From positions 581,774-645,773 of the forward strand of contig NZ_CP036264.1 of NCBI RefSeq assembly GCF_008035925.1: a stretch of DNA of 64,000 nucleotides, in the 5' to 3' direction. The DNA is from Stieleria maiorica. GTDB taxonomy: Bacteria > Planctomycetota > Planctomycetia > Pirellulales > Pirellulaceae. The notes below the pieces were generated by a model. The model did not search any database. It was not told the origin of the DNA and saw nothing but the letters and a program-made list of their open reading frames with translations. Positions 33,147 to 47,077 of the stretch are shown here, one piece after another; the first letter of the stretch is position 1, and each line of letters begins with the position of its first letter. The translations under genes and the position numbers were made by a program.

Positions 33147-33533
33147 GTCTTTCCAGTCTTTGGAGCGGGACAGGCGGACAGGCGAGTGGTCAGTTTACCC
33201 GGCAATGTCAATTTTTGGCGACGGCAAGTCAGAATTCTGCTGCCGCGGAAATTCGCCCTCGAAAATTCGCAAAGATTTTTGTTCGCCCGGCCAGCCAGCC
33301 GTCGCCCCTTTCACCGGACGACCATTGGCCGGCCCATGGGGATCTGCAAGTCGAGGTCCGACGCGACCCGCGATTTTTCAGCCGCGCCGCAGCCGATGCT
33401 GCCAAGGCAACCGGAGTCTGCGTCAGGGCCGCCGCCAGGGGACCACAGCAGGTGGGGTTTTCGGCGGCAGGACGCGTCTCGCTGGGGTGGGCCCCCCAAG
33501 GGAACTTGAGAGACGGGACGCGTCAAAGAAAAG
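33147..33533. other. Gap upstream of the symporter gene
   Basis: About 390 bp between the symporter start and the 3' end of tRNA-Phe, both on the minus strand. I see no gene. The A/T-rich stretch near 33210-33275 on the minus strand may hold the symporter promoter but no clear hexamer pair with normal spacing was found. Confidence 0.4.
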
Positions 33534-33606
33534 TGGTCAGGGCCGGGCTCGAACCGGCGACACCGGCCTTTTCAGGGCCGTGCTCTACCAACTGAGCTAC
33601 CTGACC
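33534..33606 (-). tRNA. tRNA-Phe (anticodon GAA)
   Basis: A 73-nt cloverleaf on the minus strand. Acceptor arms GGTCAGG and CCTGACC with discriminator A, D-arm GCTC/GAGC with AGTTGGTA, anticodon stem CGGCC/GGCCG with loop CTGAAAA giving GAA, five-base variable loop, and T-arm GCCGG-TTCGAGC-CCGGC. The 3' CCA is not encoded; the next bases are CTTTTC, so a short T-run may end transcription. Confidence 0.97.
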
Positions 33607-33708: not shown

Positions 33709-33736
33709 TTGGCAGATGCTTCCGACACCGTATGAT
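33709..33736 (+). promoter_or_regulatory. Candidate promoter of the ExbB/ExbD operon
   Basis: TTGGCA (33709-33714), a 16-bp spacer and TATGAT (33731-33736), each five of six to consensus. The leader would be about 190 nt. Together with the terminator at 45079-45104 it frames an eight-gene operon. I see no gene in 33607-33934. Confidence 0.5.
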
Positions 33737-33934
33737 AGCTCGAATTATCTCCCCAAACGGCGATTTCGTCACCTCGGTGATTCGTTCGCCAACTTTTCAG
33801 ACCAATTATCTGCCTGCACTCGCGGCCCATGGGTTTTCCGATCACACTAAACGATCGTCAGCCCATCAGACTTTTCGGGTCGACACACGAATCAAGGATT
33901 CCGGCCACGTTCGCTTGGGCGGAGGTATCTAAAG

Positions 33935-34861
33935 ATGTCATCGATCATTGATCAAGAAAAAAAAACGGATCAACTGGAAGCGGCGCGGCAGGAGCGCGAA
34001 CTCGAACGCGAAAAGCTGAAACTCAGCCGCTTCGACTCGGTGACGTCCCTGTTCCTGGCCTTGATCCTGTTTCTGGGCGCCTTCGTGTTCATGATGTTCG
34101 TCGTCTGGCTGCTCAGCGGTGAACCCAAGCCGATCGCATTGGCACCGATCATCGAAAACCCGCCGGGCCGCGGCGAAAACCCGGAGGGGTTCGAACGCGA
34201 TTTCGAGCCGCCGGGGGCCGAAGAGGTCGAAGACCTGATGGAACCGACCCTGGCCGACACGATCGAAGCGGTCACCGACGCGGTCAGCAGCGTGGCCGCC
34301 TCGCTGACGACCGCCGACACCAACGCCGCCGCCTCGACCCAAGGCACCGGCCAGGGCGACAGTCGACCGCCGGGCCCCATGGGCGAGGGGGATGACATCA
34401 TCGGCCGCTGGGAACGCTGGGAATTGACGTTCAACGCCAAAGGCAAAACGGACTACGCCAAACAACTGGATTACTACAACATCGAATTGGCCGCGTTCGG
34501 CGGCGGCGGCCCCAACGTCATCGAAATGGCCAGCAACTTGTCCGGGTCGCCGACCAAGCGAGTCAACACCGAGCCCAAGACCGAAGAACGGCTGTATTTT
34601 TCCTGGAAACTGTCCAACCCCCTGATGCAGTTTGACCGCCAACTGCTCAGTGCGGCCGGAATCAGTGTCGACGGCCGAAATGTGATCCGGTTCGTCCCCA
34701 AGGATCTCGAAAACCGGCTCGCCAACATGGAAAAGGAATACGCCGAAGGCAAGGGAAAGAAATTCCCCCACTCGATCGCCAAAACCGTGTTCGAGAGCAC
34801 CGCCGACGGCAGCGGGTACACGTTCAACATCATCAGCCAGCGTTACCGAAAAGGTTATTGA
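33935..34861 (+). CDS. TonB-like single-pass membrane protein of unknown function
   Basis: Of 308 residues. A charged N-terminal helix of about 35 residues (likely coiled coil), one membrane helix at about 37-60 (SLFLALILFLGAFVFMMFVV), then a Pro/Glu-rich stretch (about 62-105), a low-complexity Ala/Thr linker, and a C-terminal domain of about 170 residues containing WERWELTFNAKGKTDYAKQL. The layout of anchor, extended spacer and folded periplasmic domain is like that of TonB/TolA, and it is the first gene in front of exbB and exbD. No TonB C-terminal motif is visible, so the comparison is by architecture only. Confidence 0.8.
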   Translation: MSSIIDQEKKTDQLEAARQERELEREKLKLSRFDSVTSLFLALILFLGAFVFMMFVVWLLSGEPKPIALAPIIENPPGRGENPEGFERDFEPPGAEEVEDLMEPTLADTIEAVTDAVSSVAASLTTADTNAAASTQGTGQGDSRPPGPMGEGDDIIGRWERWELTFNAKGKTDYAKQLDYYNIELAAFGGGGPNVIEMASNLSGSPTKRVNTEPKTEERLYFSWKLSNPLMQFDRQLLSAAGISVDGRNVIRFVPKDLENRLANMEKEYAEGKGKKFPHSIAKTVFESTADGSGYTFNIISQRYRKGY

Positions 34862-34949
34862 ACCCCAAGGCTATTGAACCCGACCGACCGTTCTCCTCCC
34901 CCCCTTCAACCAAACACAATCAACTTATCAATCAACGGGAAAGACACGA

Positions 34950-35606
34950 ATGTCAATGATCCTTGCGTACTCGCTTTTCAACATGATCGCCGATGCGACC
35001 TACCTGGCACTCGCGGCGGTGGCACTTTGGGGGTTGTACTGCATCGTCGTCGTCTGGAACCGCGTCGGACAAAAGCGGTTCAAGTCCGAAGACGAACAAG
35101 ACCAGTTCCTGGATGACATCGAACAGATGATCCAGTCCGGCGATTTCGAAGGCACGATCGATTACTGCGAAGGCGACGCGCGGGCGCTGCCCCAAATCAT
35201 TGAACTGACCGTCAGCCACCGCAACCTGGGCTACAACCGGGCCCGCAAGTTCATGATGGATCGCTTTCAACGCGACGTGATGAGCGACCTGGATTACCGG
35301 CTCAGCTGGGTCAGCACCGTCATCAAAGCCGCCCCCATGATCGGGCTGTTCGGCACCGTGTTCGGGATGATGGGGGCGTTCCAGACCCTGGCCACCGCCG
35401 AATCGGTCGAACCGAGCAAGCTGGCCGGCGACATTCGCGTCGCACTGGTCACGACCGCCAGCGGACTGGCGATCGCGATTCCGTTGATGATCCTGGTCGC
35501 CAACGTCAACATCAAAATCGCCAAAATGGAAGACCTGGTCGGTTCGGGACTCAGCCGTTTCATGGACGCCTTCAAAGCCGGACTCGCCCGCAGCGGGGGA
35601 CGCTGA
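34950..35606 (+). CDS. exbB: MotA/TolQ/ExbB proton channel family protein
   Basis: Of 218 residues with three membrane helices (about 13-35, 120-148 and 165-192) and a cytoplasmic loop between the first two. The family segment IKAAPMIGLFGTVFGMMGAFQTLA is clear, as is the ALVTTASGLAIAIPLMI helix. ExbB/TolQ proteins form pentameric channels around ExbD/TolR dimers and use the proton motive force to drive envelope processes. Just upstream of three ExbD genes, the first after 6 bp, so one channel subunit may serve several ExbD partners. Confidence 0.9.
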   Translation: MSMILAYSLFNMIADATYLALAAVALWGLYCIVVVWNRVGQKRFKSEDEQDQFLDDIEQMIQSGDFEGTIDYCEGDARALPQIIELTVSHRNLGYNRARKFMMDRFQRDVMSDLDYRLSWVSTVIKAAPMIGLFGTVFGMMGAFQTLATAESVEPSKLAGDIRVALVTTASGLAIAIPLMILVANVNIKIAKMEDLVGSGLSRFMDAFKAGLARSGGR

Positions 35607-35612
35607 TCCATC

Positions 35613-36101
35613 ATGAGTAGCGTGATCGAAGACGATGTTCTGGAGGAAGATGACGATTTCCAAATGCCTCGCAGCAAGCGAGACGATGACGAAATGGACA
35701 TCACCCCCATGATCGACATCACCTTCCTGTTGCTGATCTTTTTCGTCGTCTGCTCCAAAATGGATCCGACCCAAATGGGAAAGATCCCCGAGGCACAAAA
35801 CGGCATCGCCATCAGCGCCAAAGAATCCGCCGTCGTGTTCATCGAGCCGGCCGGCAAGGACAAGGTCGTGCTGAAGCGAATCGACGGCACCGAATTCAGC
35901 ACCGACGAGGAAACGCAAACCACCGAACTGATCGAATACATCACCGAAGAACTCAAGACCACCCGTGGCGAAGAAAAGAACCACGTGATGATCATGGGCG
36001 ACGGAGAAGTCGTGGTCGGCGAAGTCACCCGTGTGCAGAAAATCATCGGCGATGCGTTCGAGGATATTTCCTCCACCTACATCGCGGTCAAAGAATTATG
36101 A
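35613..36101 (+). CDS. exbD: ExbD/TolR family protein, first of three
   Basis: Of 162 residues. A cytoplasmic N-terminus rich in Asp and Glu, then the family signature DITPMIDITFLLLIFF, whose Asp35 is the expected proton-carrying residue at the start of the single membrane helix, then a periplasmic domain of about 110 residues. The stop codon overlaps the start of the next ExbD gene (ATGA), so the two are translationally coupled. The acidic N-terminal extension of about 25 residues is longer than in E. coli ExbD. Confidence 0.9.
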   Translation: MSSVIEDDVLEEDDDFQMPRSKRDDDEMDITPMIDITFLLLIFFVVCSKMDPTQMGKIPEAQNGIAISAKESAVVFIEPAGKDKVVLKRIDGTEFSTDEETQTTELIEYITEELKTTRGEEKNHVMIMGDGEVVVGEVTRVQKIIGDAFEDISSTYIAVKEL

Positions 36102-36523
36102 CGCGCCGCAACGAACAAGAACTTGACCTGACGCCGATGATCGACGTCACGTTTTTGATCCTGATCTTCTTCATGGTCACCGCATCCTTTTCGTTGCAAC
36201 ATGCGATCGAGACGCCGACTCCGGAGAGCGATCAAGCCAGCCGCGATGTGATTGCCACGCAACTCGATCCGATCCGATTGCATGTCGACCGCCACGGCAG
36301 CTTTTTGTTGATGACAACCGACTGGCAAAAGGAAATTGTCGGCAAGCAGGAATTGGTGAACCAACTGGCCGCGGCGAAAGGGAGGGGGGCGATGCACGTC
36401 GAACTGCGGATCGAAGTTGAGTCCGCTGCCCGTTTGCAACACATGGTCGACGCGATGGATGCCGCGACGATTGCCGGATTCGATCGGTACCAGCTGGCTG
36501 AATCCGATTCCGAATTGATTTAA
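36098..36523 (+). CDS. exbD: ExbD/TolR family protein, second of three
   Basis: Of 141 residues, the most classical of the three in length. The signature LDLTPMIDVTFLILIFFMV has Asp16 as the probable proton site. A periplasmic domain follows, with the C-terminal ARLQHMVDAMDAATIAGFDR segment that recurs in the third copy as LQYLVDAMDAGTIAGFTE; copies 2 and 3 are therefore closer to each other than to copy 1. It starts 4 bp inside the preceding gene. Confidence 0.9.
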   Translation: MTRRNEQELDLTPMIDVTFLILIFFMVTASFSLQHAIETPTPESDQASRDVIATQLDPIRLHVDRHGSFLLMTTDWQKEIVGKQELVNQLAAAKGRGAMHVELRIEVESAARLQHMVDAMDAATIAGFDRYQLAESDSELI

Positions 36524-36555
36524 CAAGACAAAACTTTTCTTCCTTTTCCGAGCGC

Positions 36556-37344
36556 ATGTCGATTCCAGTTACCTGTCCCCAGTGTGGCGCGACCAACAAG
36601 GTCAACGATTCGTTGGCCGGTCGTCGCGTGCGCTGCCCCCAGTGCGACACCGCGGTGCATGTCCCCGAGTGGGACGAAACGGCGGCCCCGCCGCCGCTGC
36701 CCAGCGACGTGCCGGTCGAAACCGAGGCCCCGGCCGCCGAGTCCGTGGAAATCCCCGCGGCCCAGCCCGTCACCGTCGAACCGGCGGCCACCCCGGCGGT
36801 CGACACGACCCCGCCGGCTGACGCAGCGGTATCTGCGTTTCCCAGCAGCCCGTCGCCGCCCGCGCCGCCCGGCGATGACGATGATGACGATGATGACGAC
36901 GAGCCGATCTTCCAAAAATCAAAGCGTGAGGAAGAAGAGCTCGACATGACGCCGATGGTCGACGTCACCTTCCTGCTGTTGATCTTCTTCATGGTCACCG
37001 CGGCGTTCAGCCTGCAAAAATCAATCGAAATGCCGCGGCAACAGACCGACGCCCCCAGCACGACCGTCGTCGAAGAGGAAGAGGAAGACCTGGAAATGGT
37101 CGAAGTCCAAGTCGACGAATTCGGGTCGTTTCTGGTCCTGGCGACCGATTGGCAAGAAGAAACGCCCGGTAAACAAAATCTGATCACCACCCTCAAACGC
37201 GCCAACGAAAGCGGTAACCCGGCGCGACTGGTGATCAAAGTCCATGAGCTGTGCAAGCTGCAGTACCTGGTCGACGCGATGGACGCTGGAACCATTGCGG
37301 GATTCACCGAAACTCAGGTCACCCAGGTCGAGGAGTTTGACTAA
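36556..37344 (+). CDS. exbD: ExbD/TolR family protein with N-terminal zinc ribbon, third of three
   Basis: Of 262 residues, about 120 more than its neighbour. The N-terminus has two CPQC motifs (C7/C10 and C27/C30) in the MJ0042-like ribbon pattern CPxCG...V.D..AG....CPxC. Then come a Pro/Ala/Glu linker of about 70 residues and a run of Asp (about 113-121). The ExbD signature follows, with Asp136 in DMTPMVDVTFLLLIFFMV, and a periplasmic domain with a C-terminus like that of copy 2. The ribbon lies on the cytoplasmic side, where it could sense metal or redox state or recruit a partner. Gap to the previous gene 32 bp. Confidence 0.88.
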   Translation: MSIPVTCPQCGATNKVNDSLAGRRVRCPQCDTAVHVPEWDETAAPPPLPSDVPVETEAPAAESVEIPAAQPVTVEPAATPAVDTTPPADAAVSAFPSSPSPPAPPGDDDDDDDDDEPIFQKSKREEEELDMTPMVDVTFLLLIFFMVTAAFSLQKSIEMPRQQTDAPSTTVVEEEEEDLEMVEVQVDEFGSFLVLATDWQEETPGKQNLITTLKRANESGNPARLVIKVHELCKLQYLVDAMDAGTIAGFTETQVTQVEEFD

Positions 37345-37471
37345 CGGGACCCTGCGAGGTGCGTTCCGCGTTTGACGCATTACCGATTCACTTGACCAGT
37401 TCCGTGACGCTCGGCGGCGGCACCACGGGACGATTGACAAATCACTTTTCACCACCACTTTCTTGAACACG

Positions 37472-40400
37472 ATGCTTGCTAACGAACTGATCGATCAACT
37501 GGAGCGACGCGGTCTGCTGGACCAGGAGATCATCGAGGCGCTGCGCGAACAACTCGACCAGGGCGGCGCACGGGTGACGCCCGAGGCCGTGGCAAAGTTG
37601 CTGGTCGACAACGGACAACTGACCCGTTTTCAAGCGACCAAGCTGATCGGCGAACTGCGCAGCGGCGAATATGCCGACGATTCAACCATGGCCGCCGCCG
37701 AGATCGTCGAAGAGGATTTGATCGCGATCGACGAGGACGATGCGATCGAAGTCGAAGCCGTCGAGGCCGTTCCGGTGGACGAGGACGCCGACCTGTTTGA
37801 TGAATTCGGCCAAGCCGAAGCCGTGCCCGTGGCAGCCGTCCCGGTCGCCGGCGCCCCCGTCAATGACTTGGCGGCTGGTGCTCCCGAACGTGAGCGACCG
37901 CGGACCCGACGAACCAAACCGGAACCGAAAGATAATCAATGGGATTCGTTCAAGATCTACGGCTTTCTGGGCATCATCGGATTCCTGCTGTTGTCCGGCG
38001 GAGGACTCTATTGGATCCTTTCGCGCGGCAACGCGGATGAACGCATCAAGATCGCCAACGAGCTTTACGACAACCAGAACTACACCCCGGCCCAAGAAAA
38101 ATACTTGGAGTTTCTCGATTCATTCGGCAATTCCAACGAACACAGCACTCTGGCGCGAACCCGTGTCATCATGACCGAACTGTATCGGGCCGAAGGGATG
38201 ACCGATCCGACGTACGCGACCGAACTGGCACAGGAAAAACTGCCGACCATCGAAGACGAAGAAGGGCTGAACGAAGAACGGGGCAACCTGGCCGCGCTGC
38301 TGGTCAAGATCGCCGAGAACATCGTCGCCGAAGCCAACGAAAAATCGGAAACGACCGCCAAGCGGCAGTTGCTCGATAAGCTGAACGAGCAAATCGAACT
38401 GACCAACAATCCGCTGTACATGACCGGCGCCATGCGGACCACGTTGTCGGGGCGGCTGAAAGAGATCGATGAGGCCCGCGGTCGGGTCGAACGCGAAATC
38501 AATCGCAACGAACAGTTGGACGCCGCGGTCGAAAAGATGACCGCCCTGTTGGCGGAAAAGAACACCAAAGCGGCTTATGACGTGCGTTATGAATTGCTGC
38601 AGTCGTTTCCCGAACTCGGCGACAACGAACGGCTGATCACGTTGATCGCCAGGGCCAGCGAAATCCAACAGCAATTGGTGGAAACCACCGCGGCGCTGCC
38701 AAAGCGGATCGAAGCCGAATTGCAAACCGACCTCCGCCCGATCGTGTTGACCGCACGTTCGGGTGATCGCGTGCCGGATTTGCGTGACGAAGTGATCTTT
38801 ATCCGCACCAAAGGCAGTGTGTTGGCCTTCAACGGCGAAGACGGCACGCTGCTGTGGCGTCGCTACGTCGGAAACTCGCTGGCCCACAGCCCGATCCGCT
38901 TGGACGGCGGTACCGCCGTGCTCTTGACCGGTTCGGCCAAACTGACGGTCGAACGCTGCGACGGCCGCAGCGGTGACATCGATTGGCGCGTCGAGATCGG
39001 CGAACCCTTCAATCAGCCTGTGGTCAGCGACAACGAAATCTATCTCTCGACCAAATCGGGACGTTTGATCGCCCTGGACGCCACCACCGGTGATGCCAAG
39101 TGGGCTCAGCAGATTCCGCAAGCCTTGGAAGTCGGCCCCGGCGTCGATGACCGCGCCTCGATCGCCTACATCCCCGGTGACCACAGCAACCTGTACGTGC
39201 TGGACAGCAACAACGGCGACAGCGTGCAAAGCTACTACATGGGGCACAAGGCCGGGACGATCGCGGTGCCGCCCACGCCGCTGCTGGAACACCTGTTTGT
39301 GATCGAAAACAAAGGCCCCGAGTACTGCCTGGTTCACATCCTGGGGGTCGACCAGTCGGGCATGAACGTGAAAAAGGTTCAGGACCCGGTGCGGATGAGT
39401 GGCAACGTGGTCGTTTCGCCGATCGTTGCCCAACAACGTCGTCTGGTCGTGCTGACCGACCTGGGGGAGATCTCGGTGTTCGACGTCGAAGTGACCAGCG
39501 AAACCGACAAGGTTTCCGTCGTCGCCAACCAGCTCGCTTCCTACGGCACGCCGACGCTGACACAAATGGCCGTCGGACGCAGCCAAATGTGGACGACCGG
39601 GTCGCGAATCGGACGCTATGAATTGCAGGTCAATCGTGGCCGCGTCGTCCCGGACTGGTTCAAACACGAAGGCGACCGATTCGTCGGGCAACCGCTGGCG
39701 ATCGGCGACGCGCTCGTCCACGCGCGTCAGCTTCGCGGGACCTCCGGAATCCGTGTCTCCGCGGTCGATCCCAAGTCGGGCGAGGAATTGTGGCGCAATG
39801 ATATCGGCGCCCCCGTCGCGATGCTCCGCCGCGCCGAGGCGGGCGTGCACGCATTGACCAGCCAAGCGGCCCTGTTCGAATTGGACCGATCGGCCATCGG
39901 CAGCGGCGCGACACGGGCGCCGATCGAGAACCGAGGCAGTGTGGGCGTGATCATGCGGTTCGAAGACCCGTTGAAGATCGACGACGATCGCGCCGTGTTG
40001 CTCAACAAAGCCGGCGGCGAAGGCGGTCAACAAGTGGCCGTCTATGACCCGACCCGCAACACCGAAAAGCTGCGGCTGGTCAGTTTGAACGTGCTGTCGG
40101 GCAAACCTTCCGGCCGCGGTCTGGTCGCCGGGGGCGGGTTGTTTCTAACGCTCGACAACGGACGCGCCGTCGTGATGAACTTCCAAACCGGATCGCAGAT
40201 GGGGAATCCCTTCCAGCCGGTCAGCAGCCCCGTCGAAAAGGTCACCTGGACCAACGCCGTCGCGCTTCCCGATGACCCGGGCCAGGTCGTCGTCGCCGAC
40301 AGCCGTAGCGGGCTGTATCGGTTGCGTGTCGGCGAGCGGACGACACCGCTGGCCGAAACCAAACTGCCCGCGCCGACGTTGGGGACCATCGCGGGCGTGG

Positions 40401-40846
40401 GGATGACGCTGATGGCCGCCACCAGCGGGCCGGCCGCCGATGTGGTCATCGGCCGCGATCTGGCGACACTGAAAGAAAAGTTCCAAACGCAAATGGACGG
40501 TCGCGTCATCTGGGGACCGGTCACCGCCGGCGATCAGGCGGTCGTGTTGACCGACGATCAAGTCTTACGCGGCATCACGACCGACGGCCGTCCCACCTTT
40601 GCCGTCACCGTCCCACGCGGGTTGCCGGTCGGAGACCCCGTGATCCACCAAGACAACATCATCATCGTTTCCGATACCGGCTGGATCGTGGTGATCGATC
40701 CGGCCTCCAATGATCCGGTCGGCCTGACCGAGATCGGCGAACCGTTCTCGGCAACTCCCCTGGTCCTGCAAGATCGATTGCTGGTCCCCGGCGAAGAAGG
40801 TGTCGTCTACGTCGTCAAGATTCCCAGTGGGGTGAGTGGTCAATGA
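37472..40846 (+). CDS. Membrane-anchored PQQ-type beta-propeller protein
   Basis: Of 1,124 residues from the ATG at 37472 (an in-frame TTG lies three codons earlier). Order: a helical N-terminal domain (about 1-70) with the phrase VDNGQLTRFQATKL that also occurs in planctomycete kinases, an acidic linker, one membrane helix (about 162-183), a helical TPR-like part (about 185-400), and a propeller (about 430 onward) with BamB/PQQ blade words such as GEDGTLLWRRYVG and ALDATTGDAKWAQQIP. The propeller would sit outside the inner membrane, as BamB does. It overlaps the next gene by 4 bp (ATGA). A role in scaffolding or signalling for the ExbB/D machine is inference. Confidence 0.85.
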   Translation: MLANELIDQLERRGLLDQEIIEALREQLDQGGARVTPEAVAKLLVDNGQLTRFQATKLIGELRSGEYADDSTMAAAEIVEEDLIAIDEDDAIEVEAVEAVPVDEDADLFDEFGQAEAVPVAAVPVAGAPVNDLAAGAPERERPRTRRTKPEPKDNQWDSFKIYGFLGIIGFLLLSGGGLYWILSRGNADERIKIANELYDNQNYTPAQEKYLEFLDSFGNSNEHSTLARTRVIMTELYRAEGMTDPTYATELAQEKLPTIEDEEGLNEERGNLAALLVKIAENIVAEANEKSETTAKRQLLDKLNEQIELTNNPLYMTGAMRTTLSGRLKEIDEARGRVEREINRNEQLDAAVEKMTALLAEKNTKAAYDVRYELLQSFPELGDNERLITLIARASEIQQQLVETTAALPKRIEAELQTDLRPIVLTARSGDRVPDLRDEVIFIRTKGSVLAFNGEDGTLLWRRYVGNSLAHSPIRLDGGTAVLLTGSAKLTVERCDGRSGDIDWRVEIGEPFNQPVVSDNEIYLSTKSGRLIALDATTGDAKWAQQIPQALEVGPGVDDRASIAYIPGDHSNLYVLDSNNGDSVQSYYMGHKAGTIAVPPTPLLEHLFVIENKGPEYCLVHILGVDQSGMNVKKVQDPVRMSGNVVVSPIVAQQRRLVVLTDLGEISVFDVEVTSETDKVSVVANQLASYGTPTLTQMAVGRSQMWTTGSRIGRYELQVNRGRVVPDWFKHEGDRFVGQPLAIGDALVHARQLRGTSGIRVSAVDPKSGEELWRNDIGAPVAMLRRAEAGVHALTSQAALFELDRSAIGSGATRAPIENRGSVGVIMRFEDPLKIDDDRAVLLNKAGGEGGQQVAVYDPTRNTEKLRLVSLNVLSGKPSGRGLVAGGGLFLTLDNGRAVVMNFQTGSQMGNPFQPVSSPVEKVTWTNAVALPDDPGQVVVADSRSGLYRLRVGERTTPLAETKLPAPTLGTIAGVGMTLMAATSGPAADVVIGRDLATLKEKFQTQMDGRVIWGPVTAGDQAVVLTDDQVLRGITTDGRPTFAVTVPRGLPVGDPVIHQDNIIIVSDTGWIVVIDPASNDPVGLTEIGEPFSATPLVLQDRLLVPGEEGVVYVVKIPSGVSGQ

Positions 40847-43197
40847 AGTTTCCGTTTCAATTCAACCCAACGGCGACCGGATTCGCGCTGGCTTTGATCG
40901 CCCTGATCGGATCGGCACTGCACGCCCCGGCGTCGGCGCAAACCCTGACGTACGCCGAATCTGGCAAACCCGAAGATTCCGGGCTGGGGCTGTTGCAAGA
41001 AGCCCCCCACGACATCATCTATTTCACCGATTCCTCCGGGGGCGGCTGGGCCAAGGTCCAGCTGTTGCCCATCCGTGACATGCCGGCCACGACGCGTGGT
41101 TCGTTGCGGTTTTCCATTTTGGGAATCGAGCTCGATGAATTTGTCGCCAAGTGGACGGATATCGAACGCATCGATTTCTGGGAAAAGCGACTCGAACGTG
41201 AAACCGCCTCGCGAATCGCCAACGGGGACTTCGTCGGTGCCTATCCGTTCCTATCGATCTTGATTCGCGACTATCCGCGACGTCCGGGCCTGAAAACCCT
41301 GCGATCGGAGTTCCTGTGGCGCAACGCCATCCAACGCGCCTCGGGCAGCCAACGCGCCGAGTCGCTGGCGATGCTGGAAGAATTGCATCGCTATGATCCC
41401 CAGTACAACCAAGCCCAAGTGCTCAAGGCGATCAGTTTGACCACCGGATCGCTGATGCAGTCCCTGATCGACGAAGGGGACTTGGATAACGCACAGCAGT
41501 TGCTGGCCCGACTGAAAGAAGACTATGGGCGATTCGATTTGCCGGCGATCGCGAAGTGGGAAGGCGAGTTTCTGCGGATGGCGACCGAGAAACGAAACGA
41601 GGCGATCGAAGCGGTCAAGCGAAAGGATTTTCGATCCGCGCGTAAACTGGCCCGGGAAAGTTTGTATCTGAAACCCGACATCGACGGCGGGCGTGACCTG
41701 GTCAAAAAGATCGACGAAGCCTACCCGCTGGTTTCGGTCGGTGTGTTGCAGGCGGCGCGCATTTACGACCCCGTCCGCATGGACAACTGGGCGGCCCGGC
41801 GCGCCGGCCGATTGCTCTACCGCAACCTGTTCGAAATCCAAGGCGCCGCACCTGAAGGCGGCGAATACGATTTTCTGTTCGGATCGGCGGAAACCACACC
41901 CGACCGCCAAGTCTTGGAGTTGACTCTGGAAACCGCCAAACTGCCCAACCCGCTCAACCGCATCGAAGTCGACTTCTTGGCCGATCAATTGGCCCTGCGG
42001 GCGATGCCCGAATCGGAAACCTACTTTTCCCCCTGGGCGGCATCGGTCACGGGCATCGGAATCGACGGCCCGCAACGCATCGAGTGTGTCCTGCGTCGTC
42101 CCCACGTGCTGCCCACCTGCTTGCTTCAAATCAACGTCGATGCCAGCTGGTTCGGCGGAGAAAAGGGCGGCGCGACCGGGGACTATTTCACCGATGTCGT
42201 CAACGATGAAGAAACCCGCTTCATGCTGACGGAGGATGCGCGGCGGGCCAGCGGTGACAGCGGCAAACCCCGCGAAATCGTCGAGGTCCGATGCAACACC
42301 GGCAGCGAATCGGTCTCCAAATTGCTCAGCGGCGAGATCGACGTGTTGGATCAACTGTTCCCCGCCGACGCGATCAAACTCAAAGAGCGACGTGACGTCA
42401 AAGTCGTCGAGTACCCGTTGCCCACGATCCACATGCTGGTCCCTTGCTCGGACCATCAGTTCGTCGCCGACAAAAATTTCCGCCGGGCGCTGCTGTACGG
42501 CATCAACCGCGAAGACATCCTTCAAGGCGAACTATTGGAAAACCATGCGTCGCCGGGCTGTCGCGTCCTCTCCGGGCCCTTCCCCGCCGGTCTCAGCCAG
42601 GACGACCCGCTGGGTTATGCCTACGACACGACGATCCTGCCGCGACGCTTCGAACCCAGCTTGGCCCAGTTGCTGGTCGCGCTCAGCAAGAATTTGAAAA
42701 TCGCTGAAGCGAAGCGCAAGGATGAACCGGAACCGAAACTTCGTGCCGTACGACTGGCATTTCCCGCCGATAACCTCTCACGCGTCGCTTGCGAAGCGAT
42801 TCGCAGCCAATGGGAATTGATCGGGTTGGATGTTGAATTGGTCGAGCTGCCGATCGGACGCACTTATCCGGACCCCGACACCGCAGATCTGGTTTATGTT
42901 TCCTGTGCGATCTGGGAACCCATCATTGATGCGCGTCGATTGCTCGGGCCGCGCGGATTGGCCCGCAGCGAAGACCAATTGATCGGGCTCGGATTGCGGC
43001 GGCTGGAAGAAGCGCGAAACTGGAAAGAAGTTCGCGACCGTTTGTTGGTCCTGCATTCGATCTCGCATCACGAATTGCCGGTCTTGCCGCTATGGCAAAT
43101 GGTCGATTCGTTTGCGTACCGAAACAACCTGGTGGGGATGGGCAGCAACATCGTTTCGCTTTATCAGAATGCCGGGAATTGGAGATTGGAATTTTGA
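40843..43197 (+). CDS. Family-5 extracellular solute-binding protein with N-terminal helical region
   Basis: Of 784 residues. Signal peptide (about 1-32, cleavage near APASAQ), a region of about 270 residues with TPR-like helices (FLRMATEKRNEAIEAVKRKDF), then the SBP_bac_5 fold of oligopeptide and nickel binding proteins, seen in FRRALLYGINREDIL and in the C-terminal ELPVLPLWQ. No ABC permease or ATPase gene is near, which is unusual for this family. It is coupled to the propeller gene by an ATGA overlap. It may deliver a ligand to, or act as a structural part of, the envelope machine rather than serve an ABC importer. Confidence 0.82.
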   Translation: MKFPFQFNPTATGFALALIALIGSALHAPASAQTLTYAESGKPEDSGLGLLQEAPHDIIYFTDSSGGGWAKVQLLPIRDMPATTRGSLRFSILGIELDEFVAKWTDIERIDFWEKRLERETASRIANGDFVGAYPFLSILIRDYPRRPGLKTLRSEFLWRNAIQRASGSQRAESLAMLEELHRYDPQYNQAQVLKAISLTTGSLMQSLIDEGDLDNAQQLLARLKEDYGRFDLPAIAKWEGEFLRMATEKRNEAIEAVKRKDFRSARKLARESLYLKPDIDGGRDLVKKIDEAYPLVSVGVLQAARIYDPVRMDNWAARRAGRLLYRNLFEIQGAAPEGGEYDFLFGSAETTPDRQVLELTLETAKLPNPLNRIEVDFLADQLALRAMPESETYFSPWAASVTGIGIDGPQRIECVLRRPHVLPTCLLQINVDASWFGGEKGGATGDYFTDVVNDEETRFMLTEDARRASGDSGKPREIVEVRCNTGSESVSKLLSGEIDVLDQLFPADAIKLKERRDVKVVEYPLPTIHMLVPCSDHQFVADKNFRRALLYGINREDILQGELLENHASPGCRVLSGPFPAGLSQDDPLGYAYDTTILPRRFEPSLAQLLVALSKNLKIAEAKRKDEPEPKLRAVRLAFPADNLSRVACEAIRSQWELIGLDVELVELPIGRTYPDPDTADLVYVSCAIWEPIIDARRLLGPRGLARSEDQLIGLGLRRLEEARNWKEVRDRLLVLHSISHHELPVLPLWQMVDSFAYRNNLVGMGSNIVSLYQNAGNWRLEF

Positions 43198-45056
43198 ACC
43201 GCATCACCACCACCCCGACCAAACTTGTCTTCGCCGTCGCCGTCGTCGCGTTGCTGTTTTCGACGGCGACGCCTTCGTTGTCGGCGCAGACCGCCGACGC
43301 CCCCGACAACGCCTCGTCGGCTGAACCGGAAAGCGATGCCCCCCTCACCGAGCCCGATCCGCGAGCCGATGAGCCCTGGGATTATTCTCCCTATCGCGTG
43401 CTGATCTGGATCGCATCGCGGGACCCGCGGTTCACCGCCGAAACGCTTCACGAGCCCCTGGCGGACTACTTGGATCGCGATTTCAACGCGCTCTGGCGAA
43501 CGACGATCGAAGACGCGCCGGCGTCGGTGGCCACCGCGGCGTTTCGTTCGATGGACGATTTGACGTACGACCGCATCGCCGCATCCGACCCGGTCATCGC
43601 GGTCAAACGTGACCACGAGGACGCGATCCGCATCCAGTCGGTACGCAGCCTGCCACAATACGTCAACGCCGTGCCCACGACCAAAGGCATGCAGGCCAAC
43701 GTGCTGCGTCGTGCAACCGAATACGGTGACGCGACCATGGGCGGCACATCGGCCAAGTTGCAACCGATCGAAGGCGACGCGATTGCGTTGGCGGAATTCT
43801 GGAACGATGCGTCGACCGAAGCCTTGTTGGTCACCCGCGGACAAGCGACCACGTTTTCCAAGCCCGGGGCGAAGATCGTGCCCTTGCCCGTGACCGGATT
43901 GGTCGCCTCGACCGTCCGACGTTACGACAAAGTCTTCATCGTCCGAATCCTGCAGGAGGCCAGCGGGTCGAACGTCGCAGTGATCGAAATGGAGACGTTG
44001 ATGCGGTCCTTCGGCGCCGTCGTCCAGGCACCTTTTCTGTCGGCCTATGACCTGCCCAACGTCGTCGGGCACACCGTCACGCGGGCGTTCTCGCCGATGG
44101 TGCGGATCGACGATGCCGGGCAGAGTACGGCAACCGGAATGATCCGCGCCGGCAATCTGATCCTGGACCCGGAATCCCCCGCCGACGTCCCCGTGGGAAG
44201 CGCTCTGCAACCGATGATCCGCAAGAATGATCGCAACGGGAAACCGATCGCGATCGGCCGAATCGAGTGGGCGTACCTGATCGCGACCGAACGCGAAGGC
44301 CCCAACGTAAAGATGGATTACTACTCCGGCATGGCCGGTGGTCTGCAGGGCCGAAAGAATTCACGGACCTTTAAAATGGCCATGCTGCTCAAACCGCTCC
44401 GCGACGAAACGATGCTGCGGCTGCACGTCAAAGGACGCGAGGACCTGCCTTTGATCGGCTATGAACTCTATGAACGCGAATTGAAAAGCAAGTCCATGAC
44501 CTTCGTCGGACGGACCGACTGGAATGGACGACTGGCGATCGAAAAGACGGACGACCCGCTGCGTTTGCTGTACGTCAAGAACGGCGGCGCCGTGTTGGCG
44601 CGACTGCCCCTGGTGCCGGGACTGACGCCCCAGGAGGTCGCCGATCTGACCGGCGATGACATGCGGTTGCAGGCCGAAGCGTATATCCGGGGCGTGCAAA
44701 ACGCCATCATCGACTTGGTCGCCATCCGCAAGCTGTTGGCCGCTCGGATCCGCATGCGGTTGAAGAATGGGCAGATGGAGCAGGCCGAAGAACTGCTCAA
44801 TGCGCTGCGTGAGCAACCGACCAACGAGCAACTCGCCGACGACATGGGAAAGAAGCAAGGGGATTTCTTGAAGGAGATCGGCAATCGCAATCCCAACCAG
44901 CGCCGCAAGGTGGACATCATGTTCAAAGAAACTCGCGAAATGCTGGGCAAGCAAATCAACCCGACCGTTATCCGCGATTTGGAATCCGACGTCCAACGCG
45001 CCAAAGACAACGGCGGTAAACTGCCGGACGAACCGGCCGAAGACGAAAACGCCTGA
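43194..45056 (+). CDS. Exported protein of unknown function, TTG start
   Basis: Of 620 residues. I place the start at TTG 43194, which overlaps the stop of the preceding gene (TTGA) and has GGAG at 43181-43184 nine bases upstream. It gives a good signal peptide, LNRITTTPTKLVFAVAVV, ending near SLSAQ. A start at 43092 would bury the signal behind 34 residues. The mature part begins with an acidic Pro-rich stretch, then domains I do not recognise, and ends with helical repeats (LKNGQMEQAEELLNALREQPTN) and a charged tail. Last gene of the ExbB/ExbD operon; an intrinsic terminator follows 22 bp after the stop codon. Confidence 0.85.
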   Translation: MNRITTTPTKLVFAVAVVALLFSTATPSLSAQTADAPDNASSAEPESDAPLTEPDPRADEPWDYSPYRVLIWIASRDPRFTAETLHEPLADYLDRDFNALWRTTIEDAPASVATAAFRSMDDLTYDRIAASDPVIAVKRDHEDAIRIQSVRSLPQYVNAVPTTKGMQANVLRRATEYGDATMGGTSAKLQPIEGDAIALAEFWNDASTEALLVTRGQATTFSKPGAKIVPLPVTGLVASTVRRYDKVFIVRILQEASGSNVAVIEMETLMRSFGAVVQAPFLSAYDLPNVVGHTVTRAFSPMVRIDDAGQSTATGMIRAGNLILDPESPADVPVGSALQPMIRKNDRNGKPIAIGRIEWAYLIATEREGPNVKMDYYSGMAGGLQGRKNSRTFKMAMLLKPLRDETMLRLHVKGREDLPLIGYELYERELKSKSMTFVGRTDWNGRLAIEKTDDPLRLLYVKNGGAVLARLPLVPGLTPQEVADLTGDDMRLQAEAYIRGVQNAIIDLVAIRKLLAARIRMRLKNGQMEQAEELLNALREQPTNEQLADDMGKKQGDFLKEIGNRNPNQRRKVDIMFKETREMLGKQINPTVIRDLESDVQRAKDNGGKLPDEPAEDENA

Positions 45057-45078
45057 GGGGGCGGTGCGATGGCGACGT

Positions 45079-45104
45079 GCTGAAAAGGATTTTCAGCGTT
45101 TTTT
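45079..45104 (+). terminator. Intrinsic terminator of the ExbB/ExbD operon
   Basis: GCTGAAAA (45079-45086), loop GGA, TTTTCAGC (45090-45097), then GTTTTTT. A textbook stem with a T-run, placed 22 bp after the last gene of the operon. Confidence 0.85.
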
Positions 45105-45188: not shown

Positions 45189-46721
45189 ATGATACGTCTG
45201 ATGAACGCGTCCCTGTTGATTTGTCTACTGATTCCGTCGGCCCATGCGGCCGATCATTTGTACGGGACAATCGATGGTTGGGGACAGATGGTCGATCCGG
45301 ATGGCGATTGCCGTTTCCAGGTGGGAAAGAACGGCGTCACGGTTGGTTTTGGTCCCGGCCCCCATGGTTTGGACGCGGAAAGCAATCGCATGAATGCCCC
45401 CCGCGTCCTGCGTTCGATCAGCGGCGATCACTCCGTCTCGGTCATCGTGCAAGGCAATCTGCCGCTACCGGAACTGCCCTACGCCTACGTCAGCGGCGGT
45501 TTGATACTGATACAGGATTTGCGGAGCTACATCCGGCTGGAACGCGCCAGCTTCATCCGCAACGGCAAAAAATCTTTCTACACCAACTTCGAGCAACGCA
45601 TCGATGCGAAGCGGACGCGGATGGGACGGTTCGCCGATTACCCGCTCGACGCGGCCCGGGATGTCGAATTGCGGTTGGAAATCAGCGGATCGATTGTCCG
45701 GGGACTCGTCCGCCATGTCGGCGAGGAGTGGCACGAAATGGGGACCGCGAAGGTCCCCGCCGGCCGCAACTTTCACGCGGGTATCTCGGGCGTGAAGACG
45801 ATTCCCGATGAAGTCGACGTCACGTTCAGCGACTTCCGAATTCAACCCGCACGGAGTGTCGAGGCCTCGGACAGTTCCGAGATCGACCTTTCACCCGCTG
45901 CCCAGTCGGCGGCCCTGCCAACGCTGCCCAATTCCGCTTTAATGAAATTATTGCCTCGGATCAATCAACTACAGGCACGATCGAAAAACGTCAGCGAGAT
46001 GTCCGATGAAGAAATCGACCAGTTGATCGAGGACGCCAAAGCACTGGCCGCCGAAGACGTCGATGGTCTGCCGCAACCGCTTGCATTGGGCATCGCCAAC
46101 GGGCTGGCAAGCTCCTTTCGCCAGGCCGGAAATCCGCACACCGCGGTCAGAGTGTACCGCGAGTTCGCAGATCTTCTTCAGCAACGTGGCGAAGACGATC
46201 CGAAAATCAAGTCCCCGATCGCAAGTTTGAAACGCTCGGCCGACAAACTTCAAGCGAAACTTGACCTGATCGGAAAGCCGATCGTTGTCGACGGAGTGCT
46301 AATCAGCGGCGAGCCGATCGACTGGACAGACTATGAAGGCAAAGTCGTCTTGGTCGATTTTTGGGCGTCGTGGTGTGGCCCCTGCCGACGCGAGATCCCC
46401 AACATCAAAGAGCAGTACGAAGCCTATCATGACCGCGGCTTCGATGTTGTCGGCGTTTGTTTGGACCGCGATCGCGACAAGGCCGAAGAATACATTGACT
46501 CGGCCGAAATCCCCTGGCCTTCGATCTACGATCCGGACGCCAAGGGGAAGTCAATGGCCGAGCGGTACGATATCACCGTAATTCCAACGGCCATCCTGGT
46601 CGATCAAGATGGCAAGATTGTTTCGCTGGAAGCTCGCGGCGAAACGTTGCCCGCGCTGTTGGAGGAGTTGATCGGGCCCGCCGAAAGTCCTGAAGCAGAG
46701 GAAAGTCCTGAGACGTCATGA
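45189..46721 (+). CDS. Exported thioredoxin-fold (TlpA/ResA-like) protein
   Basis: Of 510 residues. Signal peptide (about 1-20, ending SAHAAD), a beta-rich domain of about 200 residues resembling DUF1349/concanavalin-like folds (SFYTNFEQRIDAK, GLVRHVGEEWHEMGTAKV), a helical linker, and a C-terminal TlpA-like thioredoxin domain (about 360-500) with the WCGPC active site at Cys396 and Cys399 and the cis-Pro loop VIPTAIL. It acts outside the cytoplasm, probably as a thiol-disulfide reductant. A GAGGG ribosome site lies just before the ATG. It overlaps the next gene by 4 bp. Confidence 0.87.
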   Translation: MIRLMNASLLICLLIPSAHAADHLYGTIDGWGQMVDPDGDCRFQVGKNGVTVGFGPGPHGLDAESNRMNAPRVLRSISGDHSVSVIVQGNLPLPELPYAYVSGGLILIQDLRSYIRLERASFIRNGKKSFYTNFEQRIDAKRTRMGRFADYPLDAARDVELRLEISGSIVRGLVRHVGEEWHEMGTAKVPAGRNFHAGISGVKTIPDEVDVTFSDFRIQPARSVEASDSSEIDLSPAAQSAALPTLPNSALMKLLPRINQLQARSKNVSEMSDEEIDQLIEDAKALAAEDVDGLPQPLALGIANGLASSFRQAGNPHTAVRVYREFADLLQQRGEDDPKIKSPIASLKRSADKLQAKLDLIGKPIVVDGVLISGEPIDWTDYEGKVVLVDFWASWCGPCRREIPNIKEQYEAYHDRGFDVVGVCLDRDRDKAEEYIDSAEIPWPSIYDPDAKGKSMAERYDITVIPTAILVDQDGKIVSLEARGETLPALLEELIGPAESPEAEESPETS

Positions 46722-47077
46722 ATACTCAGGCTCTCGTGCTGCTTTGTGGCATCTTGCTGATACTCGTATTCTTCATCACCATCGCGATCACACTTCTTGC
46801 GATGTTTCGTCCGTGGCTGCAATGTTTTCTAAGCGGCACACCGGTGCCACTGTTCAAGATCGTGGGAATGCGGCTGAGGAACGCACCCGTGCGAAGGATT
46901 TGCGAACAGCGTATCAAGGCCGGCTCTGTCGGCGTCGACTTGCCCGTTGAACAATTAGAAGACGCTCATCGAAAAGGCGCGGACATTGAAAAGTTGACCG
47001 ACTCGCTGTGTCTCGCCCGGCGGAGCGACCGCGACGTGACTTGGGACGAGCTATTGCACACGGAGCTGGTCGCCTGA
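46718..47077 (+). CDS. FloA-like (flotillin-type) N-terminal stub
   Basis: Of 119 residues, against about 330 for FloA. One membrane helix (about 8-30), then words that match the N-terminal part of FloA: FLSGTPVPLFKIVGMRLRN (FloA: ISIFTLVGMRLRR), an IKAGxxGVDLPVEQLE equivalent to KAGLNxxxxQLE, and KGADIEKLTDSLCLARRSD equivalent to the GGNVDRVVNALIAAQRAN region. It ends with its own stop codon before the SPFH core and coiled coil. Coupled to the thioredoxin-fold gene by ATGA. It could be a decayed copy or a small partner of a full FloA elsewhere. Confidence 0.65.
   Translation: MNTQALVLLCGILLILVFFITIAITLLAMFRPWLQCFLSGTPVPLFKIVGMRLRNAPVRRICEQRIKAGSVGVDLPVEQLEDAHRKGADIEKLTDSLCLARRSDRDVTWDELLHTELVA

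Follow-up and report, generated by a model that had tools for sequence, protein, structure and literature searches.

What does a single ExbB-type proton channel drive when its gene lies among genes for several ExbD proteins, a PQQ-type propeller, a family-5 binding protein and two proteins that match no Pfam family? This question is raised by an eight-gene block, here called g1 to g8, in a stretch of 64,000 nucleotides from Stieleria maiorica (NZ_CP036264.1, positions 581,774 to 645,773; the window). On balance, we lean towards the reading that this operon encodes one trans-envelope machine driven by the proton-motive force (PMF), conserved in several families of the class and most likely mechanical in its action. 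Its direct support from sequence analysis consists of conserved gene order, co-occurrence of the parts after splitting, motor residues and domain make-up; that the products form a complex, that protons drive it and that it does mechanical work on the envelope is what we infer. A proton-driven machine around ExbB and ExbD had been put forward in the original prediction: order, co-occurrence and motor residues speak for one unit, and the proton drive itself is presumed from the sequences.

Conserved order and retention of separated parts

The original prediction had proposed a gene-neighbourhood check, with loss of the order in relatives as the outcome speaking against it, and the order turned out to be conserved. 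From 133 surveyed loci, 31 with too little downstream sequence, five duplicates and two lacking g1 were dropped; 68 of the 95 usable loci carry exactly g1-ExbB-ExbD-ExbD-g6-g7-g8, and g1 and g2 are swapped in another two. The other usable loci comprise 11 with g1 only (mostly remote relatives or second copies), nine with g1-g6-g7-g8, three that end after g6, one that ends after g7 and one that is rearranged. Fifty-three stretches (L077-L129) were hand-chosen from g1 or g7 matches, long contigs being favoured. The arrangement exceeds chance, as its order is kept in relatives.

Loci in which the block has come apart are equally informative. A cluster-type ExbB is present elsewhere, at 172-231 bits, in eight of the nine genomes whose g1-g6-g7-g8 locus lacks the motor, and the trio ExbB-ExbD-ExbD stands together in all nine split genomes inspected (seven of family f87, plus G243 and G202); in G202, g1 is detached and the trio is followed by g6-g7-g8. 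Among 198 genomes of the class, counted as species and not as independent events, 129 hold both the cluster-type ExbB (E ≤ 1e-40, found in 133) and g7 (E ≤ 1e-90), 60 hold neither, four only ExbB (G202, G222, G272, G308) and five only g7 (G184, G280, G284, G296, G300). G202 does hold a diverged g7, and the last four g7-only genomes are 68-85% complete. In 75 of the 129, ExbB precedes g7 by no more than 13 kb and is encoded on the same strand; the other 54 have the two genes on different contigs (43, some of which may be assembly breaks) or on one contig and apart or rearranged (11). In family f87, none of the 37 genomes that hold both genes has them linked: in nine the two share a contig but are separated by 97 kb or more, and in 28 they lie on different contigs. 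That genomes keep both ExbB and g7 once the two are apart points to a common function and not to mere proximity.

The individual genes differ in their reach. g1 or a remote relative occurs in 166 of the 198 class genomes (E ≤ 1e-3), the closest named loci being those of Rhodopirellula sp. JC639 (g1 95% identical), followed by Rhodopirellula sp. SM50, strain TBK1r and Stieleria sedimenti (92%). Copies of g1 without the rest of the block were seen in Stieleria and Rhodopirellula relatives (L169, L170, L192, L201, L202, L214). Within its own family, g7 occurs in 112 of 119 genomes, and it occurs in 12 of 149 genomes of a whole-phylum sample, where the best matches after the window itself come from the same family and class; in divergent g7-like loci of other families (L252-L257), the stretch contains no gene of the block besides g7, except in L255, which has g6-g7.

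Motor genes and a candidate transducer

All eight open reading frames (ORFs) were confirmed on the plus strand between 33935 and 45056 (Table 1). The gene set originally proposed (one ExbB, three ExbD, a propeller and a family-5 binding protein) agrees with the Pfam matches, namely MotA_ExbB in g2 (E 5.9e-24), ExbD in g3 (3.9e-16), g4 (5.5e-22) and g5 (7.6e-20), PQQ_2 in g6 (6.6e-23) and SBP_bac_5 in g7 (2.2e-15); the Pfam scan returned no family for g1 and g8. Ten ORFs were scanned in this way and, as claimed, none matches an ABC permease domain. Four junctions that overlap or span at most 6 bp had also been claimed and were counted again: g2/g3 (+6 bp), g3/g4 (-4), g6/g7 (-4) and g7/g8 (-4), the last on the assumption that the TTG at 43194 is the start codon of g8, a choice that yields a signal-peptide-like N-terminus. 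The remaining three junctions measure 88, 32 and 118 bp.

Table 1. Genes of the block and candidate transcription signals (positions in the window)
Feature	Position	Strand	Description
g1	33935..34861	+	Inner-membrane protein of predicted TonB/TolA-like topology: cytoplasmic helix, transmembrane helix 32-60, linker, C-terminal domain ~155-305
g2	34950..35606	+	ExbB/TolQ-type proton channel, cluster-specific subfamily
g3	35613..36101	+	ExbD/TolR-type protein with DxTPMxD
g4	36098..36523	+	Third ExbD, g5-like, lineage-specific
g5	36556..37344	+	ExbD with N-terminal MJ0042-type zinc ribbon and acidic/proline-rich linker
g6	37463..40846	+	N-terminal domain, one transmembrane helix ~161-188 (by eye), TPR-like helices (by eye), PQQ/BamB-type propeller
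g7	40843..43197	+	Exported; TPR-like N-terminal half and family-5 solute-binding domain
g8	43194..45056	+	Exported protein, TTG start; FlgT is best fold match; Ig-like domain, C-terminal helices
Promoter candidate	33709..33736	+	TTGGCA-16-TATGAT, 10/12 consensus matches; weak
Intrinsic terminator candidate	45077..45099	+	8 perfect pairs, 10 with G-T pairs, loop 3, T-rich tail

The motor genes belong to the MotA/TolQ/ExbB and ExbD/TolR families, with PF01618 and PF02472 over their cut-offs and the helix aspartate and transmembrane threonines conserved. ExbB T136 and T169 are invariant across 27 sequences, and the DxTPMxD motif, which we take to contain the proton-carrying aspartate of ExbD/TolR, is kept in 93 of 97 g3 and 89 of 94 g5 homologues; motor residues are thus intact in most homologues. 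The nearest NCBIfam models are TolQ for g2 (71.1 bits vs a cut-off of 221) and TolR for g3-g5 (38.3, 45.9 and 46.6 bits vs 127.3), all well under the equivalog cut-offs. NCBIfam also recognised the MJ0042 zinc ribbon at the N terminus of g5; its cysteines are kept in 81 of 94 homologues, and it would lie on the cytoplasmic side. The extra ExbD g4 sits between g3 and g5 only in the window and in L137-L140, L142 and L144, while the third ExbD of L145 and L148 is another one, placed after g5. A third ExbD is therefore limited to close relatives or of separate origin, and two unlike ExbDs are the rule: the three ExbDs originally counted are present in the window, and two are usual in relatives. 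Elsewhere in the same genome, which consists of one 9.89-Mb contig, other ExbB/ExbD loci (L132, L133) lie next to genes for tetratricopeptide repeat (TPR) proteins and for proteins that show weak similarity to squalene-hopene cyclases, and an ExbD pair near a transketolase gene lies in a stretch in which no ExbB was detected (L134:5221-6181, near 1704232-1705063).

An AlphaFold2 model of g1, based on 62 sequences, shows a helix, the transmembrane helix, a stretch modelled mostly at low confidence and a C-terminal domain modelled with confidence; this predicted architecture has the three parts of TonB and TolA, with the N-terminal helix probably on the cytoplasmic side. The disordered linker contains strongly conserved parts such as GDSRPPG. 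Searches of the 62 members detected no TonB family at E ≤ 1, no vWA domain and, with Pfam, neither the FHA nor the TonB domains of the GltG type. Four residues past a conserved serine, the place of the TonB/TolA histidine, 47 of the 62 g1 members carry alanine and the other 15 serine. Canonical TonB or TolA identity is ruled out by the domain scan and the helix motif, and a vWA transducer by the domain scan. In the wider set, 8 of 131 g1 sequences were flagged for a transmembrane histidine; five diverged or remote members truly have it (L119, L122, L123, L124, L126), while L125 and L140 were mis-picked windows and in L185 the histidine precedes the motif position. The diverged cluster L126, where g1 is directly upstream of ExbB and its membrane helix reads S-x3-H as in TonB, speaks for a transducer role. 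The originally proposed TonB-like anchor thus holds for topology and lacks TonB_C and, outside such diverged members, the histidine. No fold match of g1 in PDB reached E ≤ 0.001, and profile-based sequence searches of PDB for g1 and g8 yielded no useful match. A second structural alignment of the C-terminal domain gave Z of at most 3.3; since it only re-aligns Foldseek's own matches, this domain may still have a known fold.

Transcription signals are less clear. The promoter candidate is unsupported, as the region has 3 sigma-70-like sites where shuffled sequence gave 4.4. The terminator called clear in the original prediction is plausible: terminator-like sites are not enriched overall (16 vs 21.9 in shuffles), and the hairpin at 45077-45099, 20 bp past the last gene, is the sole place in 17 kb on both strands that passes a stricter rule (in three overlapping forms), although 12 of 60 shuffles also hold at least one such site somewhere. 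A tRNA-Phe (GAA) gene lies just upstream of the operon on the minus strand (33533-33606). Downstream, a gene pair at 45189-47077 encodes a protein that combines a weak DUF1349 match with a thioredoxin domain of the ResA/TlpA kind, and a 119-aa fragment similar to the beginning of FloA; in the locus maps of relatives, these thioredoxin and FloA-like genes are outside the conserved block.

A proposed mechanical machine and the rival explanations

The periplasmic parts suggest what the motor might act on. g7 scores 57.1 bits with PF00496 (cut-off 32.4) and is thus a member of the family-5 solute-binding proteins, and its N-terminal half has a weak TPR_19 match (E 0.065). In g6, an RFQA-like motif occurs in 61 of 95 homologues, and a DNA pattern for it matched only g6 itself in the S. 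maiorica genome. g8, first described as an exported unknown, is exported, judging by its signal-peptide-like N-terminus, and now has a best fold match: its predicted structure (mean pLDDT 88.6) is closest in PDB to FlgT (8z5n chain 0, E 3.3e-6, prob 1.00; 3w1e, E 9.8e-5), with TolB of Acinetobacter (7mx5, E 8.3e-5) ranking between the two FlgT entries. The FlgT match spans residues ~25-368 of the mature chain and includes binding-protein-lobe-like and F1-barrel-like parts. In the second alignment, separate matches cover a binding-protein lobe, an F1-type barrel, an Ig (immunoglobulin)-like domain and the C-terminal helices, and the rows besides FlgT are mostly single-domain matches. In the model, the likeness to FlgT therefore appears to be one of domains in order and not of one rigid body.

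From these parts, the following machine can be proposed. The g2 ExbB and the unlike ExbD pair g3/g5 would, judging by family and residues, form a 5:2-type motor, with g4 as a lineage-specific spare ExbD. g1 might be a dedicated transducer beside the motor, sending a flexible linker through the periplasm and presenting a domain without recognised fold. The inner-membrane propeller g6, together with exported g7 and FlgT-like g8, could serve as a periplasmic scaffold or as the load of the motor. As in Tol-Pal or Agl-Glt, the motor would probably link the inner membrane, the cell wall and the outer membrane to each other or reshape them, rather than import a single nutrient.

Several observations weigh against such a machine. 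The proposal draws on genes and predicted folds. The SHLS-type histidine of TonB and TolA occurs in none of the 62 close g1 members, and since this is the motor-contacting residue, coupling between the motor and g1 is assumed. The propeller of g6 is of the BamB/PQQ type in Pfam and NCBIfam and not of the TolB type. For the g8-FlgT 8z5n match, TM-scores are 0.17 and 0.24 and the root-mean-square deviation (rmsd) is 12.6 over 392 columns; the second alignment of the predicted model gave Z 8.8 and rmsd 10.3 over 201 residues (VIA), and no FlgT-type Pfam match was found in 37 g8 members. Among the genomes, no cluster-type ExbB was found by profile in G184, which has g1-g6-g7-g8, or in G204, which has a diverged and rearranged version, and in G212 the ExbB is in place but fails the cut-off. 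Absences of g7 are soft, as its search scored five candidates per genome. Weaker matches (E ≤ 1e-3) to the TolB and Pal profiles occur in 38 and 20 of 39 class genomes, so that a diverged Tol-Pal may still exist; in 14 control genomes, 10 (TolB) and four (Pal) matched, E. coli and Caulobacter among them, with two each over cut-off. Finally, the main text of an essential-gene study of P. limnophila names no exb or tol gene (PMC10632474).

A bolder version of the proposal, which we put forward only tentatively, is that the block stands in for Tol-Pal in much of Planctomycetia. A hetero-ExbD motor with a zinc-ribbon switch and a new-fold transducer would work against a ring of propeller, TPR and FlgT-like parts, holding or moving the outer membrane in cells that multiply by budding and lack FtsZ. 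TolB and Pal at the curated cut-off were found in 0 of the 39 class genomes, which agrees with Tol-Pal having been reported as largely reduced in Planctomycetes (PMC8871954). These bacteria have also been described as lacking a recognisable FtsZ (PMC5147048). For outer-membrane energy coupling in such FtsZ-less, Tol-Pal-reduced cells, the block offers a defined gene set whose parts are kept even when apart, and the g1 domain without recognised fold is a structural target.

The family-5 binding domain invites a different explanation, in which g7 would bind a ligand, peptide-like or of another kind, whose passage or sensing the motor and g1 energise in the fashion of TonB. PQQ propellers can bind ligands, and a g7 that is over the Pfam cut-off with no ABC permease among the ten ORFs scanned would fit. 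However, no TonB-dependent receptor was found among the same ORFs, g1 lacks TonB_C, g6 and g8 resemble scaffold parts, and the binding domain of g7 shares its chain with a long TPR-like half. Partners other than the binding domain of g7 would point to force transmission or scaffolding, and we consider import or sensing improbable.

We regard as similarly doubtful that the block drives a surface or adhesion apparatus, either gliding-like or linked to the crateriform pits and fibres of planctomycetes. One TolQ-like and two TolR-like subunits with TPR proteins correspond to the make-up of Agl-Glt (PMC3169522), crateriform structures are described as joining outer and inner membrane (PMC5394234), and g8 has its closest fold match in a ring protein. 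The ORFs scanned, however, include no outer-membrane barrel or fibre family, and no publication uniting Planctomycet, ExbB and crateriform was found in the open-licence literature.

The separation of motor and partners in f87 could also mean that the block is merely a set of envelope genes under common regulation, with the motor serving other transducers and the rest acting as independent periplasmic proteins; the eight ExbB-family matches in the S. maiorica genome would supply such alternatives. This is quite unlikely, given that motor and g7 are both kept in the 37 genomes where they are separated and that the cluster ExbB is distinct: in 18 genomes, its profile scores 172-340 bits for cluster members vs at most 109 for other ExbBs, apart from one second copy that reaches 142 bits in G152.

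Least probable is a flagellar accessory with g8 as H-ring protein and g2-g5 as alternative stator: FlgT, which g8 most resembles in fold, is a component of the H-ring in the Vibrio outer-membrane stator scaffold (PMC7990780), and FlgI is over the Pfam cut-off in 115 of 119 family genomes, so that most block-bearing genomes may be flagellate, but many of these FlgI matches are weak (~50-82 bits, profile positions 1-234, ORFs of ~600 aa) and in our judgement resemble another protein, g7 is present in all 16 hand-picked genomes at least 95% complete whose best FlgI match is weaker than E 1e-20 (among them G180, in which fragments of a genuine FlgI may be present) and in three of four genomes without any FlgI match (G343, G353, G384; not G391), and g3-g5 are of the ExbD and not the MotB type. 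The FlgI distribution thus makes this role unlikely. The ~600-aa ORF with the weak FlgI match (positions ~1-234) is itself widespread in the family, for example at G000:C1:5776238-5776933, and occurs also where a strong FlgI is lacking.

Comparison with known ExbB/TolQ-driven systems

No published description of the block was found in the open-licence literature. The exbB (RB12053) and exbD (RB12055) genes of R. baltica have been reported as salt-induced (PMC2754498) and could not be mapped to it. Among known systems, Tol-Pal (TolQ-TolR-TolA-TolB-Pal, CpoB) shares with the block a PMF-type motor whose nearest NCBIfam models are TolQ and TolR, a membrane-anchored transducer, a propeller and TPR parts, and the TolB structure 7mx5 is among the fold matches of g8. 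In contrast to Tol-Pal, the motor is far below the tolQ/tolR equivalog cut-offs, g1 has no TonB-type domain, the propeller is of the BamB/PQQ kind, the block includes no Pal gene, and two ExbDs and an extra binding-protein domain are added. Beyond the motor families, the block passes no membership test for Tol-Pal.

TonB-ExbB-ExbD resembles the block in its motor families and in the topology of the transducer, whereas the block has no TonB_C, no histidine in close g1 members and extra conserved partners. With FlgT of the Vibrio H-ring, the likeness is the best PDB fold match of g8; the differences are the missing sequence-family match, the low TM-scores and the extra Ig-like and helical C-terminal parts.

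Two systems of similar overall plan contradict the original statement that known systems pair one channel with one ExbD, as two TolR-like proteins are reported for the Agl motors (PMC3169522) and for the vWA systems of the Planctomycetes-Verrucomicrobia-Chlamydiae (PVC) group (PMC12204202). The Agl gliding motors combine one TolQ-like with two TolR-like subunits (PMC3169522), as does the block, and the Agl-Glt machinery of Myxococcus (AglR, AglQ, AglS, GltG, GltD, GltE, GltC) further shares a transducer and TPR proteins with it. GltG, however, has FHA and TonB domains, of which g1 has neither by Pfam, and the block adds a propeller, a binding protein and a FlgT-like part, which are not mentioned for Agl-Glt in the portion of that account drawn on here (PMC3169522). 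In the PVC systems, vWA transducers sit with two TolR-like genes, and the likeness extends to one TolQ with two unlike TolR, a TPR protein and a TonB-like three-part transducer (PMC12204202); the difference is the vWA domain, in many cases with an SHLS motif, whereas g1 has no vWA domain and all 62 close members miss the histidine. Because the plan of motor, two TolR and TPR protein is shared with Agl-Glt and the PVC vWA systems, yet membership in Tol-Pal fails beyond the motor families, the sequences suggest that the block represents a new variant among the ExbB/TolQ-driven trans-envelope machines.

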